Assembly (NCBI GenBank): GCA_944324805.1
Contig: CALUXS010000004.1
Coordinates: forward strand, 1-64,000
Length of the DNA: 64,000 nucleotides
Direction: 5' to 3'
From: an uncultured Acholeplasmatales bacterium
GTDB taxonomy: Bacteria; Bacillota_I; Bacilli_A; Acholeplasmatales; Anaeroplasmataceae
Position 1 is the first letter of the stretch. Each line of letters begins with the position of its first letter. Below are positions 23,102-31,661 of this stretch, piece after piece. The notes beneath the pieces are model-generated. The model was not told the origin of the DNA, searched no databases, and saw nothing but the letters and a program-made list of their open reading frames with translations. A program made the translations under genes and the position numbers.

Positions 23102-23722
23102 TTACTTTATAATTTTTTCAAAATCTGATTTACCATGCTTACAAATTGGACATATAAAATCATCAGGCAATTCATCACCTTCATATTCAAAGCCACAAAC
23201 CATACAGCGCCAATAAACCTTACCTGTCTTCTTCTCTTCGCTTTGTGGTTTTGGTTTAACCTCTTTTTGATATAAATCATAGGTAAGTGATTCTTTATCA
23301 CTTAGTATTTCTGCCTCACTTACAGTAGCAATAAACATTAGGTGTGTACCTAAATCGAAGGTTTCTTTTACTTCACAAGAAAAATAAGCATTTGTTCCTT
23401 CAGTTAAATAATAAATATCATTTGTTGCTCTTTTAACTCCAAAAAAGTCCATGAATTTATCAACATTTGCTCCACTTTGAAAGCCAAATCTTTTAAATAA
23501 AGAAAAATCTGCTTCTCTACTTAATATAGAAACATTAAATTTTTTAGTTTTTTCTATTAAAGTTGTTGTAAAATTACTTTTATTTATAACAACCTGTACC
23601 TGTAAAGGATTAGCTGTAACTTGCATGAAAGTATTTATTATACAACCATTATCTTTTATTCCATCCTTTGCAGTCAATAAAAATAACCCATATTGAATTT
23701 TAAATAAAGCCTTTGTATCCAT
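23102..23722 (-). CDS. hrb: High-molecular-weight rubredoxin (flavin reductase-rubredoxin fusion)
   Basis: A 206-residue fusion. Residues about 1-150 match the flavin-reductase-like (FMN-binding) split-barrel, with CIINTFMQVTANPLQVQVVINKSN and NVSILSREADFSLFKRFGFQSG. Residues about 168-206 are a rubredoxin: WRCMVCGFEYEG...DDFICPICKHGKSDFE, with the two C-x2-C iron-binding pairs. Such Hrb proteins pass electrons from NAD(P)H-linked partners to flavodiiron proteins (NO or O2 reduction) in anaerobes such as Moorella; here the electron acceptor is not in the window. Stands as a single gene with terminator, beside the six-gene cluster but not clearly in it. Confidence 0.9.
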   Translation of the reverse strand: MDTKALFKIQYGLFLLTAKDGIKDNGCIINTFMQVTANPLQVQVVINKSNFTTTLIEKTKKFNVSILSREADFSLFKRFGFQSGANVDKFMDFFGVKRATNDIYYLTEGTNAYFSCEVKETFDLGTHLMFIATVSEAEILSDKESLTYDLYQKEVKPKPQSEEKKTGKVYWRCMVCGFEYEGDELPDDFICPICKHGKSDFEKIIK

Positions 23723-23769: not shown

Positions 23770-25029
23770 TTATATAGCATTAGAGAAATATTTATTAATC
23801 ATTTTATGATAATCTAACTTTGTATTATGCTTTCTATCATAATATAGTTTATTTACTTTTATCAAAATAAAATCATATGTGTTTTTAATGTTTTTAGTAG
23901 AAAAGATATATTTATTATCCTTATAATAAATGGTAAAGATATTCGGATTATTATTTTCTAATCTAAGCTTCTGATCCCATATGTAGTTATAAAATAACTT
24001 ATCTAAAGATGAATACTTGAGTCTTCCTAGCACATAAAGTCCGGAATTACATATTTTTCCTATATCTCCTGTTTTATGATAATTATTTAAAACATGGATA
24101 CCTTTAATTGCAATCTCTCCTACTAGCTCTTCGTTTGGATTTTCAATGTAGTAGGTAACACCATCTATCTTTTCATCAAAATAAAAAGGGTTATCTAAAT
24201 ATTTATTTAGGTTAGTTTTTCCTATTAAAATCCCTTCACTTGCTCCATAAGCATACGTAATTTTAGCATTAGGGTAGGAGCTTTTTATTATTTTAGCTTC
24301 ATTAGAATCTAAAATTGCTCCACCAAAATACACATTTTTAATAGTTGGTAAAGATTTTTTTATTTTCAATTTTTTAATTGTACCTAAAATCGTCTCTATA
24401 TTATACTTTTGACATTTTGCTTTTTTTATCTTTTTACTAATAAGAATTGAATTACCATTAAGAAGGGCAAGTAAAGTATAAATTGGCAAAAATGACAAAA
24501 CATTCTCTTCTTTTGTAAACTTAACATTTTTTCTTATAAGCTCAACTTGTCTTTCTAAATCTAATAGAGTTCGATCAATCCTTTTAGGATTTCCGGTAGT
24601 GCCAGATGTAAAAGTGGTTAAGACAATTATATTTTTATCTATGTCTAATTTTTCTTCTTTTTCTTGATAATTCTTATATTTAGAAAGATTTAATAGGGGT
24701 AAAGAAAAAATAGTTTTAGCTACAAGCTTAGTCTTATAATTTACCAAGATCATCTTTAAATTAGGAATTAATTTATAATTAGGCCTTAGGCTATCAGGAA
24801 CAACTATATTTAATCCTAGGTATATAGACGCAACTATTGCTAAATAAAATTCATAAGAAGGAGTACAAAAAAGTAAAACCTCATCACCTTTTTCTAATCC
24901 TTTTGTTTTATAATAATTTACCATTTTCAATATGTCTAAATAAAAACTATAGTAAGTTTTTTTCTTTGGTTCAAAAAAAGCAATATTGTTAGCTTCTTTT
25001 TTACAGGTTTCTATAAATCTTGCAACCAA
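23770..25029 (-). CDS. Adenylate-forming ligase (AMP-binding enzyme), short form
   Basis: A 419-residue protein starting at TTG (25029), eight bases after AAGGAG. Adenylation motifs: A3 TFTSGTTGNPKR (residues 139-150), A5 YGASEG (261-266), A7 YHKTGDIG (317-324), A8 GLYVLGRLKYSS (330-341). The tail YDRKHNTKLDYHK (around residue 400) looks like the A10 lysine region in the DxRHNxK form seen in OleC-type and related ligases. It is 100 or more residues shorter than acyl-CoA synthetases, with a reduced C-terminal subdomain. Role: activates a carboxylate as acyl-AMP. It is last in the six-gene cluster. Whether the acceptor is CoA, an amine or a beta-hydroxy acid is unknown. Confidence 0.8.
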   Translation of the reverse strand: MVARFIETCKKEANNIAFFEPKKKTYYSFYLDILKMVNYYKTKGLEKGDEVLLFCTPSYEFYLAIVASIYLGLNIVVPDSLRPNYKLIPNLKMILVNYKTKLVAKTIFSLPLLNLSKYKNYQEKEEKLDIDKNIIVLTTFTSGTTGNPKRIDRTLLDLERQVELIRKNVKFTKEENVLSFLPIYTLLALLNGNSILISKKIKKAKCQKYNIETILGTIKKLKIKKSLPTIKNVYFGGAILDSNEAKIIKSSYPNAKITYAYGASEGILIGKTNLNKYLDNPFYFDEKIDGVTYYIENPNEELVGEIAIKGIHVLNNYHKTGDIGKICNSGLYVLGRLKYSSLDKLFYNYIWDQKLRLENNNPNIFTIYYKDNKYIFSTKNIKNTYDFILIKVNKLYYDRKHNTKLDYHKMINKYFSNAI

Positions 25030-25044
25030 AATATCAACTCCTTA

Positions 25045-26103
25045 TTAGTATTTGTAGCACAACAAACGCTTATAATAAAAAGCTAAATCATCTTTTATAT
25101 CAATGTTTATTCTATCAAGCTTACTAAAAAAACGATCATTAAGCATATTCCAAAATAAAACTCTCCCGTTTTTATTTAAAGAATCAATAATCAATTTTTC
25201 GTATAAATCCATTTCATTAACATTAATATATTCGAAAACATCGCTTAGATTCATAAAATCATATTTGTTTTTTTCCTCTAAAACTTCTTTTAAAGTGGCA
25301 TATCTTATTTCTAATCTATCAATTCTAGACTTTATTATCTCATAATTTTCTTTAATCAAATAGATTGGTAATGTCTTAAACTTATTGAAGACAACATATT
25401 CTAAATAGGGATTTTTATTATTTAAATTATTATAGATACCTAGTTCAAAACGTCTTTTTACATTCTTCGCTAAAGGTTCTTTATTATATTTAAAATAATT
25501 TTTGTCTCTTCCAAGCATTTTCATAACAAATTCTGAGAAAAAAATTCGAAACATAAGTCTAAATCTAAGATTATTAAATTTTTTATTGTAAAATGTAATT
25601 TGACTTTCTATATTAGGCTGATTCATAAAAGCCTCAACTTTATTCTTAGAATGAATTAATGGCAAAACCTTTTTGCTAAAAATTTGAAAATAATATTCAA
25701 ATCTACCACAATTAACTATTTTAATATCCTTAATTAAATAATCATGATCCATAAAGTATTCTTTCGTTTCAGAATCTAAAAATGGAACTAAATTCAAGAA
25801 TAAAGTCCATGAATCTCCTTTTAAAATACCAATAAATTTTAAAAAATCCTCATAAGAAAATTTAATAATTGCTGCTTTTTTTAAATTAGCGAGATAAACC
25901 TGAGTAATGTTTGAATCTATCGCTAATATATGTGTTGGATTAGTCAATAAAAGCGCTAAAGAATTATCTAAGGCTGATGAAATTGATAAAATATTTGAAC
26001 CTTCAGTTTGACAAGCTTCAAGAAGTTTATTAGCATCTTCATGACAATTACTATAATGAATATAATTATCCTCCTTATAGTATTTTTTTATTTTCAACCT
26101 CAT
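25045..26103 (-). CDS. BtaA-like AdoMet aminocarboxypropyl transferase (DUF3419)
   Basis: Start at ATG 26103 (352 residues) after AAAGGGG; the gene overlaps the dikinase-like gene by 29 bp. Typical DUF3419 blocks: SNCHEDANKLLEA, NILSISSALDNSLALLL (residues 38-53; compare the family S-x-G-D-N-A-L), and HILAIDSNITQVYLANLKKAAI with Asp 63 where AdoMet is bound, followed by YEDFLKFIGI. In DUF3419/BtaA enzymes the 3-amino-3-carboxypropyl group of AdoMet is moved to a hydroxyl of diacylglycerol (first step of betaine lipid synthesis). The normally paired methyltransferase BtaB is absent here, so the acceptor or the final product probably differs. A later ...NLSDVFEYINV segment closes the domain. 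Confidence 0.8.
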   Translation of the reverse strand: MRLKIKKYYKEDNYIHYSNCHEDANKLLEACQTEGSNILSISSALDNSLALLLTNPTHILAIDSNITQVYLANLKKAAIIKFSYEDFLKFIGILKGDSWTLFLNLVPFLDSETKEYFMDHDYLIKDIKIVNCGRFEYYFQIFSKKVLPLIHSKNKVEAFMNQPNIESQITFYNKKFNNLRFRLMFRIFFSEFVMKMLGRDKNYFKYNKEPLAKNVKRRFELGIYNNLNNKNPYLEYVVFNKFKTLPIYLIKENYEIIKSRIDRLEIRYATLKEVLEEKNKYDFMNLSDVFEYINVNEMDLYEKLIIDSLNKNGRVLFWNMLNDRFFSKLDRINIDIKDDLAFYYKRLLCYKY

Positions 26104-28396
26104 ACACCCCTTTATTGCCATCTAGTTTAATATAGTCTCCAGTCTTTAATATTTTTGTTACTCCCTTTACTCCTATTATTGCTGGTATACCTAGCTCTCT
26201 TGCAACAACAAAGCTATGAGAAAGCATACTTCCATGTTCAACTATAAGTCCTTTTATTAAAGGAAAAAGACTAATCCACCCTGAATCTGTCCTTTTAGTA
26301 ACTAATATTGTATTAGGCTTAAAATACTCACTTGGATCATTTAGAACACTAACTACCCCACTTACTATTCCGCCACCACTTGCAATGCCTTGTTTTAGAT
26401 CATTATTTGTTTTTAAAATTGGTAAAACCTCATCTTGATAAAAAACAAGTCTATCAAAATATTCATTACTAAAATTATTAAATTGTCTTTTTCTTTTTGA
26501 AACAATTTGTTTAAAATCTAAATCTTGATTAAATAACTCATTAACAGTTAGATAAAAGATATCTCTTTCATTTTCGATTTTATCTTCTAATTCATACTTT
26601 CTACCAATAGCTAAAAATATATTTCTAACAACAGAAAATACATATGTACGTTTTAAGCGTAGACGCTCTCTATTTTTTATATAATGCTTTGTTTTATCCG
26701 CTATTTTTTTAATTCTCTTAGGAATAACAATTTTATTACTATTTTCAGCTTTAATTCTATTAGATATTAATGATTTTTTTATTAAATCATATGCCAGACT
26801 ATTGTCTTCAATTAATGTAATAGTTTCTAGCTTAAGTTCATCACAAACACGAGAACCAAAATCCTTAATATATTCATCAATTAAACACTTTAATTTAGAA
26901 TCTTCGTGATGATATTTATTATATATTTCTAAATAATCTAGATTTAAAAAATCATTATAGATAGATTCATTTTCTTTTATATAAGTAATAATATCTTCTA
27001 TTCTATAGTACATATCAGCACTTCTAACATTACCATCATTGTTTATTGCTTGTGCTATTATTTCATTTTTTAAAGGTATATTTATTCTACTAATCCTTTT
27101 TACTAACATACCATAATAAATCATTACTGCACAATCGTTTGCTATTGGTATAGAAAACTTACTAACAATTCTTTCTTCTAATCTCTTATACAAATTTATT
27201 AGTTCTTCTACACTACCATCTAATCTTTTACCATAATAGGGCATAACAATTTCATCAAATTCTTTTTCAAAATCACTAATTAACTTATCTAAAGTTTTTA
27301 GTCTCTTAAGTGCATTAAAACCAAACCTAACAATATCAAAAATATTCATCTTGATTCTTTTTGTATCGCTGATGGTTGTTTTTAGCCCCATCATATTTTC
27401 CATATAGTCCTTTGATGATCCTATTTGAAAAATTGAAGTCAAATAATACCAATTATTTAAATTATAATATATTTTTCCATCATAATAATAAAGCATATTA
27501 TCTAATGTAGACTTAAGACTTTTTATGATACCTTCTCTGACATTTACAAATTTAAGTGTCGATTCATAAACTTTGCTATATACACTATTAGCAAAACTAT
27601 AAGTTAAATATGACGTATTACCATAGTAAGATTCTATTATGTTTGAATTATCTAGTGTAAGAGTTCTTTTCTTGTTTAAAAACTTATTATAAGTTGTTAT
27701 ATCTCTTGTTTGTAAAAAATAAATTTTATTACCCTTTATAGCAAACTCAATATCTTGAAAGCCATTAGTTTTACTTACTACATCATATGCTAATCTTTTT
27801 ACTAATTCTATTTTTCTTTTACTTAAAATATCTTTTCCTGTAACAGTTATCTTATCTCCATTAATTAGATAACTTGAACCATCAATCTTTCCAGATAAAA
27901 GATTATCGCCATAACCATTAGTAACACTTATACATATTTCATCAGGATTATTAGTTATTGGATTAATTGTATTAATGACACCAGAAAAATCAGCCTTAAC
28001 CATTTCTTCAACAATAACTGCCATTTTTATACTATCATGGGAAATATTATTTTTTTGACAATATTTTTTAACCCTATTACTATCCTTGCTTTGATAAACC
28101 TTCATAATGTAATCATATATTTCATCCTTTTTAATATTTAAAAAAGAATCAAATATACCTGCAAAACTATAATTAGAGCCATCCTCTAATGTGGCTGATG
28201 AACGAATTGCATAAAGCTTTTTGGATGAAAATACCTTTTCTATTTCAAAAGTTAATTCTTCTTTAGATTTATCTTCTTCAAAAAAAGATGTTTTTAAGAC
28301 AAATAGTTTAGGAGTATTTTTTATTCCTAGTTTAAGAAGTTTATAAGCCTTACCGCCAATTAAATTTATATCTAATAGTTTATCTGTAAAAAACAT
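26075..28396 (-). CDS. PEP-synthase-like dikinase / rifampicin-phosphotransferase-type enzyme
   Basis: A 773-residue protein. Residues 1-235 form the ATP-binding domain of the PEP synthase/PPDK family: IGGKAYKLLKLG, AIRSSATLEDGSNYSFAGIFDSFLN, VEEMVKADFSGVINTINPIT, NGYGDNLLSGK, DIEFAIKGNKIYFLQTRDIT. A middle region (235-660) is rich in Lys/Glu with no recognised motif. The C-terminal phosphohistidine domain GGGIVSG...EHGSMLSHSFVVARELGIPAI has the catalytic His at about 727. There is no TIM-barrel PEP-binding domain, so this is the ATP-substrate-His order found in rifampicin phosphotransferase and the prodigiosin condensing enzyme PigC, not true PEP synthase. Expected chemistry: ATP-driven phosphorylation or condensation through phospho-His; the substrate is unknown. 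Confidence 0.85.
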   Translation of the reverse strand: MFFTDKLLDINLIGGKAYKLLKLGIKNTPKLFVLKTSFFEEDKSKEELTFEIEKVFSSKKLYAIRSSATLEDGSNYSFAGIFDSFLNIKKDEIYDYIMKVYQSKDSNRVKKYCQKNNISHDSIKMAVIVEEMVKADFSGVINTINPITNNPDEICISVTNGYGDNLLSGKIDGSSYLINGDKITVTGKDILSKRKIELVKRLAYDVVSKTNGFQDIEFAIKGNKIYFLQTRDITTYNKFLNKKRTLTLDNSNIIESYYGNTSYLTYSFANSVYSKVYESTLKFVNVREGIIKSLKSTLDNMLYYYDGKIYYNLNNWYYLTSIFQIGSSKDYMENMMGLKTTISDTKRIKMNIFDIVRFGFNALKRLKTLDKLISDFEKEFDEIVMPYYGKRLDGSVEELINLYKRLEERIVSKFSIPIANDCAVMIYYGMLVKRISRINIPLKNEIIAQAINNDGNVRSADMYYRIEDIITYIKENESIYNDFLNLDYLEIYNKYHHEDSKLKCLIDEYIKDFGSRVCDELKLETITLIEDNSLAYDLIKKSLISNRIKAENSNKIVIPKRIKKIADKTKHYIKNRERLRLKRTYVFSVVRNIFLAIGRKYELEDKIENERDIFYLTVNELFNQDLDFKQIVSKRKRQFNNFSNEYFDRLVFYQDEVLPILKTNNDLKQGIASGGGIVSGVVSVLNDPSEYFKPNTILVTKRTDSGWISLFPLIKGLIVEHGSMLSHSFVVARELGIPAIIGVKGVTKILKTGDYIKLDGNKGVYEVENKKIL

Positions 28397-28401
28397 CTTA
28401 A

Positions 28402-28875
28402 CTACCTCCTAACTAAAAATAAATCAAGAATTATTAATAACCCTAAAACTAAATATATGTATATATTAAATGAAAATTCATAGTAAACTAAAATAGTTAT
28501 AAAAACTGGCAAAATCAAAGATTTTAGATATCTTAGTTTTCTACTATTTATTACAAGTAATAATATAAGAAAAAAGGAAATAAAAAATAAATACCTATTA
28601 TAAAGACAAACTATAATTATATTAATAATACTAAAAGTAATAAAAATACTTAAAAGAAGCCATTTTCTAAAAATAATTTTATTGTTTTTTCTATCACTAT
28701 CATAATCTAAAATATCATCAAAAAACCTTATCTGATATGTATAAATTAGACAAACAAAAAATGAAATATTAAAATAATTATTTTCGTTAGTATTAGATAA
28801 ATAAAACAAAGATGTATATATTAGAAAAAATAGTATCAAAATTAATATATATCTTCTAAAAAATAATTTAATCAT
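28402..28875 (-). CDS. Half-size UbiA-like membrane protein
   Basis: A 157-residue membrane protein with about five helices. FFDDILDYDSDRKNNKI (about residues 51-67) matches the first Asp-rich motif of UbiA prenyltransferases (NDxxDxxxD), which binds prenyl diphosphate through Mg2+. The second Asp motif, present in full-length (~290-residue, nine-helix) enzymes, is absent: the protein stops after helix five. The next genes follow within 1-5 bp, so there is no room for the missing half and no sign of a recent frameshift. It may be a diverged or two-subunit enzyme, or a membrane protein that only keeps the fold of the N-terminal half. Probably in the same operon. Confidence 0.55.
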   Translation of the reverse strand: MIKLFFRRYILILILFFLIYTSLFYLSNTNENNYFNISFFVCLIYTYQIRFFDDILDYDSDRKNNKIIFRKWLLLSIFITFSIINIIIVCLYNRYLFFISFFLILLLVINSRKLRYLKSLILPVFITILVYYEFSFNIYIYLVLGLLIILDLFLVRR

Positions 28876-28876
28876 T

Positions 28877-29950
28877 TTACCACCAGCGCTTACTATATAT
28901 TTTAGCCTTAAACATTAAAAAATTATAGTTTAGATTGGCGTATCTAGCTAATTTTTTTATTTCTGGAATTGCTTTTTCTTTGGGAACTCTTTTTTCTAAA
29001 ATATTTAACGCTTCTTCTTTTTTCAATTTCTTTTCTCTTATCATAACACTGTATTCAGGCATTAAGTGACTTCTTTTTTGAATCAAATCTTTTAGATATA
29101 AAGCTCCATTATGAATAGAACAATCAAAATGTTCTTCTTCACTTTCTACCCTCCATGGTGTATTCTTCTCTAAGAAATTTATGATTTCATCTTTATCATA
29201 GGGATGATATAAAAAATAACTAATAAACTCTCTATATCCGTTTTTTAAAGAATCTATTAAAACTATTTTTTTAATTTCAGATTCTAGCTTCTTATCAACA
29301 AGCTTACCAATTTTTTCTAATAAACTATTATAAAAATTATTAAGCTCTTCTTCACTTGTTTTCTTAAGTCCATTTAATATAAATGGAGCAAATATATCAT
29401 TATTTGTGCCATCAAAGCCTCTTAGCATTTGATAAATACTTCTACCATGCATTCCTACTCTAGCATTCACTTTACTAGCATAATTAATCATTGCAGCATA
29501 TCCTAAAAAACTACATGCTAAGCATGGAGATAAAAATTTTCCAACAATTCTATGATATATTCTTTTTAATATTTCTTGATCATATACTACATATTCATGT
29601 TCAACATTTAAATATTTAACTATACTATCAATCTTTCTTTTAGCCTCTTCTGTTAAAAAACCATTATCTAATGTATAGGCAATAACTTTTAAATTATATG
29701 TTTTTACTAATTTATATAAAACATATGTCGAATCCTTACCACCGCTAAAGCCTAAAGCAACATCGTATTTATAATTTCCCTCTCCTAAATGTAATTTGCT
29801 TATAAATAATTTTTCTAGATAATTATAGTCATGTATTTTTTCTTCAATTTGTTGGTAAGCTTCACAAAATGAGCACAAACCATTTTCATTAAATTTTATA
29901 TTTTTTACTGTACTATCATTAACACATTTTTCACATTGCTTTTTAATCAT
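28877..29950 (-). CDS. PP-loop ATPase, N-acetyl-sugar amidotransferase-like
   Basis: Start at ATG 29950 (357 residues), overlapping the upstream stop by 8 bp. A zinc-finger-like N-terminus (CEKCVNDSTVKNIKFNENGLCSFC, C-x2-C and later C-x2-C) and the PP-loop GFSGGKDSTYVLYKL (about residue 65) are typical of the WbpG/PseA-type N-acetyl-sugar amidotransferases, which activate a substrate as an adenylate and add ammonia. A further SPCLACSFLG pair (about residue 155) could bind a metal or sulfur. The usual glutaminase and cyclase partners (HisH/HisF-like) are not in this window, so ammonia or sulfur from elsewhere would be needed. It may act as an amidating or thiolating enzyme in the cluster. Confidence 0.75.
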   Translation of the reverse strand: MIKKQCEKCVNDSTVKNIKFNENGLCSFCEAYQQIEEKIHDYNYLEKLFISKLHLGEGNYKYDVALGFSGGKDSTYVLYKLVKTYNLKVIAYTLDNGFLTEEAKRKIDSIVKYLNVEHEYVVYDQEILKRIYHRIVGKFLSPCLACSFLGYAAMINYASKVNARVGMHGRSIYQMLRGFDGTNNDIFAPFILNGLKKTSEEELNNFYNSLLEKIGKLVDKKLESEIKKIVLIDSLKNGYREFISYFLYHPYDKDEIINFLEKNTPWRVESEEEHFDCSIHNGALYLKDLIQKRSHLMPEYSVMIREKKLKKEEALNILEKRVPKEKAIPEIKKLARYANLNYNFLMFKAKIYSKRWW

Positions 29951-31121
29951 GACTAAATACCCCATATTCTTTTTCTTTAATTTTAGAATTTTTATGAACA
30001 TTCATTAGGGTTCGTGTCTTAGCATTTTGAAAATGGTACAAAATTTTATCATACCCTTTTTCTAAAATTATTTCATAATTTAATGATATTAATTTTAAAA
30101 TAATATTTTTATTTTGAAAATTCTTTTTTATTCCAACTGTTTTAGAAACATAAAATCTTTTTTCTGGGTCGTCATAGCCAAAGCTAAAAGCAATAGGTGT
30201 ATTCTTATAATAGATAATAACTAGATTTGGATCACAAAAAGATAAATTACTTATATATAAATCTAAAAAATCTTCCTTACTAATTGGTTCATAAAATATA
30301 GAATCTGTAAATGAATCTATAACAATTTCATAGACTTCTTCTAAGTGCTTATAGCATTCTTGTTTGTAATAAATAGCAAATGAATAGTTTGAATCTAGTT
30401 TCAAATTTAATGCTCTTTTAGCTAATCTATTATTATGATAAGCCAAAGTAGATATATATTTTTCTTTAATTATAAATCCATTATTTAGTAACAAGTTTAC
30501 TTCATAATTGGTGTTATTCAAATCGGGATATAATTTAAAGTCAAATTCATTCAAAGCTAACCTATATTTATACCACGTATTGCCATCAAAAGGTCCTAAT
30601 AAATTTGGTATATTTATTAACTTTTTAATTAAAAAATCATCATCATTGGTATGAGTAAAATTTAAAAAACCAAAATAATTATAACAAGCACGATAGATGA
30701 CTGTTACATTAGAATTTCTATAACTTATAATTTCATAGGGATAGTTACCTATCATTCTTTCTTTTATTTCTATTCTATTTATGATTTTATCTAAATCAGA
30801 TGCATCATTAATTACATAATCATATTCTAAAGCAACATCATTTAAAACTAAATTATATATAAAAAAAATTCTTTTATGATTACTAATTGCTTCATAATCA
30901 CTAGAATTAGCACCTACAAATATAAACTTACCAGTATTTTCTTTTAATATTCTATTTAATCCTTCAGCAACTGAGCATATATTAATGTTAGTTACTCCTT
31001 GTATGAGCTTTTCATGATTATAATTTAGAATATATATTTTGTATTTTTCTTGATATTTTTCATAAGCTTTTATGCTTTCTTTTTTAAGATATCTATCACA
31101 TAATATTAACCCACTAAGCAT
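29943..31121 (-). CDS. GNAT-like protein with unknown N-terminal domain, first gene of the cluster
   Basis: A 392-residue protein. Residues about 210-392 look like a GNAT acyltransferase: SFAIYYKQECYKHLEEVYEIVIDSF, then LVIIYYKNTPIAFSFGYDDPEKRFYVSKTVGIKKNFQNKNI, a beta-hairpin and a long helix with the acyl-CoA-binding helix-turn. Residues 1-150 form a separate alpha/beta domain (GLILCDRYLKKE..., FVGANSSDYEAI...), which I do not recognise; the ILCD/VGANSSD phrases suggest a nucleotide-sugar or ATP-grasp-like fold. A GPFDGNTWYKYRL motif links the two. It is the first gene after the ATP synthase terminator, with an extended -10 promoter (TGGTAAAAT) just upstream. Confidence 0.55.
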   Translation of the reverse strand: MLSGLILCDRYLKKESIKAYEKYQEKYKIYILNYNHEKLIQGVTNINICSVAEGLNRILKENTGKFIFVGANSSDYEAISNHKRIFFIYNLVLNDVALEYDYVINDASDLDKIINRIEIKERMIGNYPYEIISYRNSNVTVIYRACYNYFGFLNFTHTNDDDFLIKKLINIPNLLGPFDGNTWYKYRLALNEFDFKLYPDLNNTNYEVNLLLNNGFIIKEKYISTLAYHNNRLAKRALNLKLDSNYSFAIYYKQECYKHLEEVYEIVIDSFTDSIFYEPISKEDFLDLYISNLSFCDPNLVIIYYKNTPIAFSFGYDDPEKRFYVSKTVGIKKNFQNKNIILKLISLNYEIILEKGYDKILYHFQNAKTRTLMNVHKNSKIKEKEYGVFSHD

Positions 31122-31177
31122 TCTATCACCACTTTAAGTATATTTTACCATAGATTTTGCCATATAGAAAATAAAAA

Positions 31178-31232
31178 AAATATCTCCAAGATAGACAAGT
31201 TTCTACTAAAACTCGTTTTCTTAGAGATATTT
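31178..31232 (-). terminator. Terminator of the ATP synthase operon
   Basis: On the minus strand, AAATATCTCTAAGA and TCTTGGAGATATTT form a 14-bp stem (with one G-U) and are followed by eight T. It starts four bases after the epsilon stop. Confidence 0.85.
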
Positions 31233-31235
31233 CTA

Positions 31236-31661
31236 TTATTGTTTTAAATTTTCAGAAAAGCTTGCTTTAACCTTCATACGATTAATAGCTCTAGCTAATT
31301 GAGTTTGATTAACATAGTATTCCTGACGACTTAGCTTATGAAGTAATGCTTCTCTAGCATTTTCAGCAGCTCTTTTAGCTCTATTAATATCAATTTCACT
31401 AGGACGTTCAATTGAATCTACTAGAATCAAAACTTCATTATTTTCCATTTTAAATAAACCAGATGATACAGATGCAACTTCAAAATCTTTGCCTGGTAAT
31501 TTCACCTTTAATTCGCCTGGAATTATTGCGCCAAACAAATTACAGTGATAGGCTAATAATCCATATTGTCCTTTACTTGTAGGAATAACTACTGATTCAC
31601 AATCACCTTCATAAAAAACCTTATCAGCAGCTAAAATTGATACTTTAAAAGTTTTTGCCAT
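31236..31661 (-). CDS. atpC: F1 ATP synthase epsilon subunit
   Basis: A 141-residue protein with the epsilon beta-sandwich (SILAADKVFYEGDCESVVIPTSKGQYGLLAYHCNLFGAIIPGELKVKL) and a C-terminal helical hairpin (residues about 95-141) with basic residues. The AAENAREALLHKL helix is the regulatory arm that can contact alpha/beta. Last gene in the operon; a strong terminator follows. Stoichiometry one per complex. Confidence 0.95.
   Translation of the reverse strand: MAKTFKVSILAADKVFYEGDCESVVIPTSKGQYGLLAYHCNLFGAIIPGELKVKLPGKDFEVASVSSGLFKMENNEVLILVDSIERPSEIDINRAKRAAENAREALLHKLSRQEYYVNQTQLARAINRMKVKASFSENLKQ

Follow-up and report, generated by a model that had tools for sequence, protein, structure and literature searches.

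A recurrent six-gene cassette of gut bacteria as a candidate pathway for a membrane-associated, lipid-like molecule with a homoserine-type group

A stretch of 64,000 nucleotides from an uncultured Acholeplasmatales bacterium (contig CALUXS010000004.1, in the following termed the window) contains six neighbouring minus-strand genes from enzyme families of very different kinds, raising the question whether they form one biosynthetic system and, if so, what this system produces. An earlier sequence-only reading had described them as a single run, with overlaps or gaps of at most 15 bp, between the ATP synthase and rubredoxin genes. Coordinates of the six tightly packed ORFs (window 23770-31121; named A to F in transcription order) and of the two flanking genes agree with this description (Table 1): A and B overlap if B is read from its first ATG (30001), B and C are 1 bp and C and D 5 bp apart, D and E overlap by 47 bp, and E and F are separated by 15 bp. 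For B, however, translation more probably begins at an internal start codon at 29950 than at the first ATG.

Table 1. Genes of the cassette and its two flanks in the window
Feature	Coordinates	Strand	Basis
A: tandem-GNAT acyltransferase-like protein	29943..31121	-	homologue Pfam matches, AlphaFold model
B: PP-loop ATP-dependent amidotransferase-like enzyme, WbuX/PseA-related	28877..30001, likely start 29950	-	NCBIfam, motifs
C: reduced UbiA-like membrane protein	28402..28875	-	invariant RxxDDxxDxxxD motif
D: rifampin-phosphotransferase-like dikinase (ATP-grasp, substrate domain, phospho-His swivel)	26075..28396	-	Pfam, PDB profile search
E: BtaA/DUF3419-like AdoMet 3-amino-3-carboxypropyl transferase homologue	25045..26121	-	Pfam
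F: short AMP-forming adenylating ligase	23770..25029	-	Pfam, core motifs and HNTK C-terminal lysine motif
Flavin reductase-rubredoxin gene, downstream flank, outside cassette	23102..23722	-	
atpC, upstream flank, outside cassette	31236..31661	-	

The site after atpC is variable in the window genus (window 31121-31236; L107-L112). Seven other genomes of the genus lack the cassette, and in the five of these in which the region after atpC is readable, other genes follow, e.g., those for a glutamine synthetase-like, a transporter-like and a 1955-residue protein. The flavin reductase-rubredoxin gene is missing beside most other cassettes; its product is the counterpart of the C-terminal part of a 595-residue fusion (L019:12428-14215), in which an ODP/metallo-beta-lactamase domain is joined to flavodoxin, flavin reductase and rubredoxin.

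When the single window protein E served as query, nothing was retrieved from genome contigs; the loci were found with an alignment-based profile of E. The profile scan yielded 16 loci, one of them in a Fibrobacter MAG and the remainder in Treponema, Anaeroplasmataceae, and other Bacilli and Clostridia-labelled MAGs; neighbouring genes were read at the ten loci outside same-order genomes and, additionally, in one genome from a second Bacilli family. Counted once per genome, all six genes are present at 15 loci (the window and 14 others; A cut by the contig start in one), with gene order A-B-C-D-E-F and strand being fixed. Among the incomplete loci, one is interrupted within E and three are truncated more severely; wherever E matches strongly, the other genes are present up to the contig limit. 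Among 160 genomes of the order, E was detected in seven: that of the window and six from a different Anaeroplasmataceae genus (g5), the latter six all sharing an identical gene set and order (two cut by contig ends). Profile searches with A (strong matches of the GNAT part) and B retrieved the same eight of these 160 genomes; E is present in seven of them, while the contig of the eighth stops inside C, i.e., before E. In one further genome of the order, an A homologue is represented by its first 92 residues only, where the contig breaks off. In the Treponema family, E was found in 5 of 274 genomes. The neighbourhood search and co-occurrence check proposed in the sequence-only reading thus revealed adjacency of the six genes in every genome where the contig permits and no scattering. 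Genes flanking the cassette are unrelated between lineages; an epimerase-like gene precedes A in two Treponema loci. A Mur-ligase-like gene located after the cassette in several g5 genomes was considered as a seventh member and rejected as native, since it also occurs in members of g5 that lack the cassette and is absent from the window genome. Most genomes of g5 carry this Mur-ligase-family gene (L015:9795-11033), as do some further members of the Anaeroplasmataceae-like family, in which peptidoglycan is not expected.

Phylogenetic analysis of D and E places the Fibrobacter copy inside the Treponema copies (support 0.99-1.0) and does not group the g5 copies with the window copy of the same family. 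Judged from these sequences, the cassette is spread horizontally among gut bacteria of several phyla. The Fibrobacter case consists of one MAG contig and may, despite the equal GC content of its flanks, represent a binning error. Each cassette resembles its own flanks in GC content, so the transfers need not be recent. Between relatives, pN/pS ratios range from 0.13 to 0.48 for the CD fusion and for every single gene except C, which is least constrained (0.71 in one pair). Intact recurrence in many genomes together with this purifying selection argues against a chance arrangement of the six genes. No relative of E was found in viral contigs, and an anti-phage defence system was dismissed, PADLOC giving only a chance-level Cmr3 match for B.

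D matches Pfam PPDK_N (1.3e-36) and PEP-utilizers (3.1e-22), with Listeria rifampin phosphotransferase (RPH) as best solved relative (profile search, 1.9e-68; the fold match agrees). RPH uses Arg117 for ATP binding, His825 as phosphate carrier and Arg666 plus Glu667 at the acceptor site (PMC4844700); the equivalents in window D are R65, H727, R576 and E577, respectively. The Arg-Glu pair and the His are kept in every D copy examined, including those of the sister operons described below. The pair was aligned by reading, based on equal spacing from the Arg to a conserved Gly in both proteins, at a position where HMMER put a gap. Since D is devoid of a pyruvate-binding domain and retains the RPH residues, it should phosphorylate a hydroxyl group rather than pyruvate. 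Against the NCBIfam equivalog for RPH (NF041857), D scores 181.4 bits without reaching the cut-off of 999; it also resembles PigC/RedH in NCBIfam, its scores lying far below both model cut-offs.

C, previously read as a half-size UbiA-like protein, comprises 157 residues, about half the length of UbiA. It does not match PF01040 and contains the first Asp-rich motif only, whereas UbiA has both motifs and nine helices; five to six helices are predicted for a C homologue. An hhalign comparison with the Pfam-confirmed UbiA of the sister operon, which occupies the operon position of C, gave 89 % probability (P 2.3e-6) across just 32 columns at the first Asp motif. Thus, this motif and the predicted helices suggest the proposed UbiA-likeness, which is not accompanied by a Pfam UbiA match. 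Residues R50, D53, D54, D57 and D61 are invariant across phyla. In 12 of 16 loci C and D form a single protein with C at the front, suggesting that they probably act together; C may also be a mere membrane anchor. The low overall confidence of the CD model (pTM 0.44) confined its use to helix placement and the RPH match.

E belongs to DUF3419 (6.5e-50; 170.8 bits vs the curated cut-off of 28.2) and matched no solved structure at E-values up to 1. The family member BtaA forms diacylglyceryl homoserine, a homoserine ether, from diacylglycerol and AdoMet (PMC3972451). No cassette contains any methyltransferase gene, and hence no counterpart of the BtaB N-methyltransferase. DUF3419 genes also occur in other contexts. 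Plasmids of Rhizobium (L119:712-5032) and Shinella (L120:1700-8032) carry an operon encoding an MBL-fold protein, a 'CoF synthetase' (probably an adenylating enzyme), a DUF3419 protein and an unknown 368-residue protein; upstream of it lies an oxidoreductase gene, accompanied in Shinella by a KASIII-like gene. The Rhizobium 'CoF synthetase' is weakly similar to F, and a supposed similarity of a DUF3419-neighbour protein in Rhizobium to A was unsupported. On a Deefgea piscis plasmid (L121:3499-8019), a DUF3419 gene close to IS elements neighbours genes for AdoMet decarboxylase and an iron-containing redox enzyme. Distant, sometimes multicopy DUF3419-like proteins are encoded in a Bacilli family without the cassette (L081:8110-8919 and other f14 genomes).

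Neither A nor C on its own matches a Pfam family. Homologues of A match Acetyltransf_1 (up to 5e-05), and the AlphaFold model of one homologue (pLDDT 87.7) displays a HAD phosphatase domain (motif DLDGT) followed by two GNAT lobes, bearing out the GNAT-like assignment made previously. The closest tandem-GNAT structural relative of A was obtained by Foldseek alone, a second structural comparison covering the HAD part. The N-terminal HAD domain (DxDGT) is intact in the 12 other full A copies aligned; in the window copy it is truncated and degenerate, the start lying after motif I, and hence lost. The HAD step is therefore dispensable or supplied elsewhere. FkbH-type glyceryl transfer (HAD-IIIC plus GNAT) was rejected, since the HAD domain found in the A homologue belongs to the phosphoglycolate-phosphatase type and scores 20.1 bits against HAD-IIIC (cut-off 35.75). 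B matches TIGR03573 (WbuX) with 1.9e-35 and 122.9 bits, under the cut-off of 203.2; its CxxC pairs, SGGKDS loop and SPCxxC motif are invariant across copies, and PDB 8wex was matched in the structural database. F matches Pfam AMP-binding (2.8e-19) and contains all core adenylation motifs as well as the C-terminal lysine (HNTK), its C-terminal part being short. It scores 26.4 bits against NF045785 (OleC beta-lactone synthetase; cut-off 850 not reached), and genes for the Ole partners OleA, OleB and OleD are absent from the cassette. Overall, Pfam, NCBIfam, homologue and profile evidence agrees with the six families originally assigned, in case of C in part.

A related gene arrangement, for which no description was found in the literature searched, is present in a Bacilli family (f15; L078) and on a plasmid of Roseinatronobacter sp. 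S2 (NZ_CP121116.1; L082). This sister operon encodes, in order, a full-length UbiA, D, E, a membrane protein, a GNAT protein and F, with D and E sharing 28-33 % identity with the window proteins. The membrane protein has no Pfam or NCBIfam match and carries the motifs RKxVHxGxG and KSxEG, from which we take it to be VTE5/dolichol-kinase-like (polyprenol-kinase-like). Presence of a full UbiA and a polyprenol-kinase-like protein beside D and E points to a membrane-soluble substrate. Together with the cassette-encoded UbiA remnant and BtaA-type enzyme, the sequences of these proteins suggest the same.

Based on these features, the six genes may represent a self-contained, horizontally exchanged cassette for the formation of a membrane-associated, lipid-like molecule with a 3-amino-3-carboxypropyl (homoserine-type) group (probability about 0.45). 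The sequence-only reading had proposed an undescribed system for a lipid or peptide-like product with a homoserine-derived moiety. Such a moiety fits E, the C/D pair and the sister operon, while the chemistry, i.e., substrates, step order and product, is deduced from the enzyme families. Likewise, the recurring organization agrees with a dedicated biosynthetic system, and no characterized pathway or described six-gene set was found in the literature searched, most subscription journals being outside this search. The gene set is thus provisionally regarded as undescribed, its novelty residing in the combination and not in the individual enzyme families. Loss of the HAD domain in A, the usual C-D fusion, the spread across phyla and the sister operon are additions to the earlier reading.

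D, held at the membrane by C, would transfer the beta-phosphate of ATP via His727 to a hydroxyl group of a hydrophobic C/D-bound substrate. E could use AdoMet to place a 3-amino-3-carboxypropyl group on a hydroxyl of an acceptor, by analogy to BtaA and diacylglycerol, and F would adenylate a carboxylate, possibly that of the newly added amino-acid group. An acyl (or aminoacyl) group may be transferred by the tandem GNAT of A, whose HAD domain, where present, would take off the phosphate added by D, and B would activate a carbonyl with ATP for nitrogen insertion. No order is implied by the listing of these predicted steps. The lack of any exporter or carrier-protein gene argues for a product retained in the membrane.

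Against a lipid-like product one may hold that the chemistry of B and F equally occurs with sugars or peptides, that C, the least constrained gene, may be just an anchor, that E matched no solved structure and that the window copy of A does without its HAD domain. The cassette could accordingly produce a soluble, peptide-like specialized metabolite (antibiotic, signal or metal chelator), with F activating, A joining, E adding the aminocarboxypropyl group, B making an amidine, D condensing or phosphorylating as in PigC/RedH, and C serving as membrane tether only. Resemblance of D to PigC/RedH and of B to amidine-forming sugar amidotransferases as well as the patchy distribution and transfer, typical of specialized metabolites, would suit such a product, but the scores of D are remote from the PigC and RedH cut-offs, every cassette is devoid of transporter, resistance and regulatory genes, and the Asp motif of C, invariant across phyla, and the C-D fusion likewise speak against it, rendering a soluble metabolite rather unlikely.

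Still less probable is the modification of a cell-surface glycan or polyprenyl-linked sugar, in which C would hold polyprenyl phosphate, D phosphorylate, B amidate an N-acetyl sugar in the manner of WbuX/PseA, and E and F add an amino-acid group. WbuX, an N-acetyl sugar amidotransferase, is the nearest named family of B, which also matches PDB 8wex, and the epimerase-like gene before A in two Treponema loci would be in line with sugar chemistry; yet B stays under the WbuX cut-off, and the cassette lacks genes for a glycosyltransferase, nucleotide-sugar formation, a flippase and HisH/HisF partners. Functional independence of the six neighbours, suggested by nothing more than the diversity of their families, is contradicted by the joint occurrence of the genes in fixed order and by their overlaps and fusion across phyla and can practically be dismissed.

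If the membrane-associated product is correct, a gut and rumen pathway for a new compound is defined in testable form by its gene set, natural variants and a distant relative. Through the fusion of a UbiA-derived membrane domain to a phospho-histidine dikinase, RPH-type chemistry would reach membrane substrates, and E would represent a BtaA-family enzyme outside betaine-lipid synthesis. More tentatively, one may envisage a new class of bacterial membrane molecules: an AdoMet-derived aminocarboxypropyl lipid formed via a membrane-tethered dikinase (reduced UbiA fused to an RPH-type enzyme), its six-gene cassette having spread between gut phyla and being related to a wider UbiA-dikinase-BtaA pathway found in Alphaproteobacteria as well.

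Compared to known systems, F shares with OleC-type ligases (PRK09274) the core and the C-terminal lysine motif, and the sister F proteins match PRK09274 with 1e-63 and 1e-83; however, F scores below the OleC cut-offs and the OleA/OleB/OleD complement is missing. Similarly, B has the zinc-ribbon-like cysteines and PP-loop of WbuX/PseA N-acetyl sugar amidotransferases, but falls below the family cut-off and is not accompanied by HisH/HisF. The betaine-lipid pathway of Rhodobacter and Sinorhizobium likewise employs a DUF3419 protein (BtaA), by analogy to which aminocarboxypropyl transfer from AdoMet is expected for E; in contrast to the cassette, it includes BtaB and none of the five other enzymes. 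RPH and D agree in three-domain order, catalytic His, Arg-Glu pair and ATP-site Arg, whereas identity is about 20 %, and D scores below the RPH cut-off and is usually joined to a membrane domain within a multi-enzyme operon. The sister operon differs from the cassette in its full UbiA, the additional kinase-like membrane protein and the lack of B and a HAD domain, but shares homologous D, E, GNAT and F proteins and a UbiA directly before D. UbiA-D-E plus GNAT and F thus represents the common core, with B and the HAD domain being specific to the gut form.
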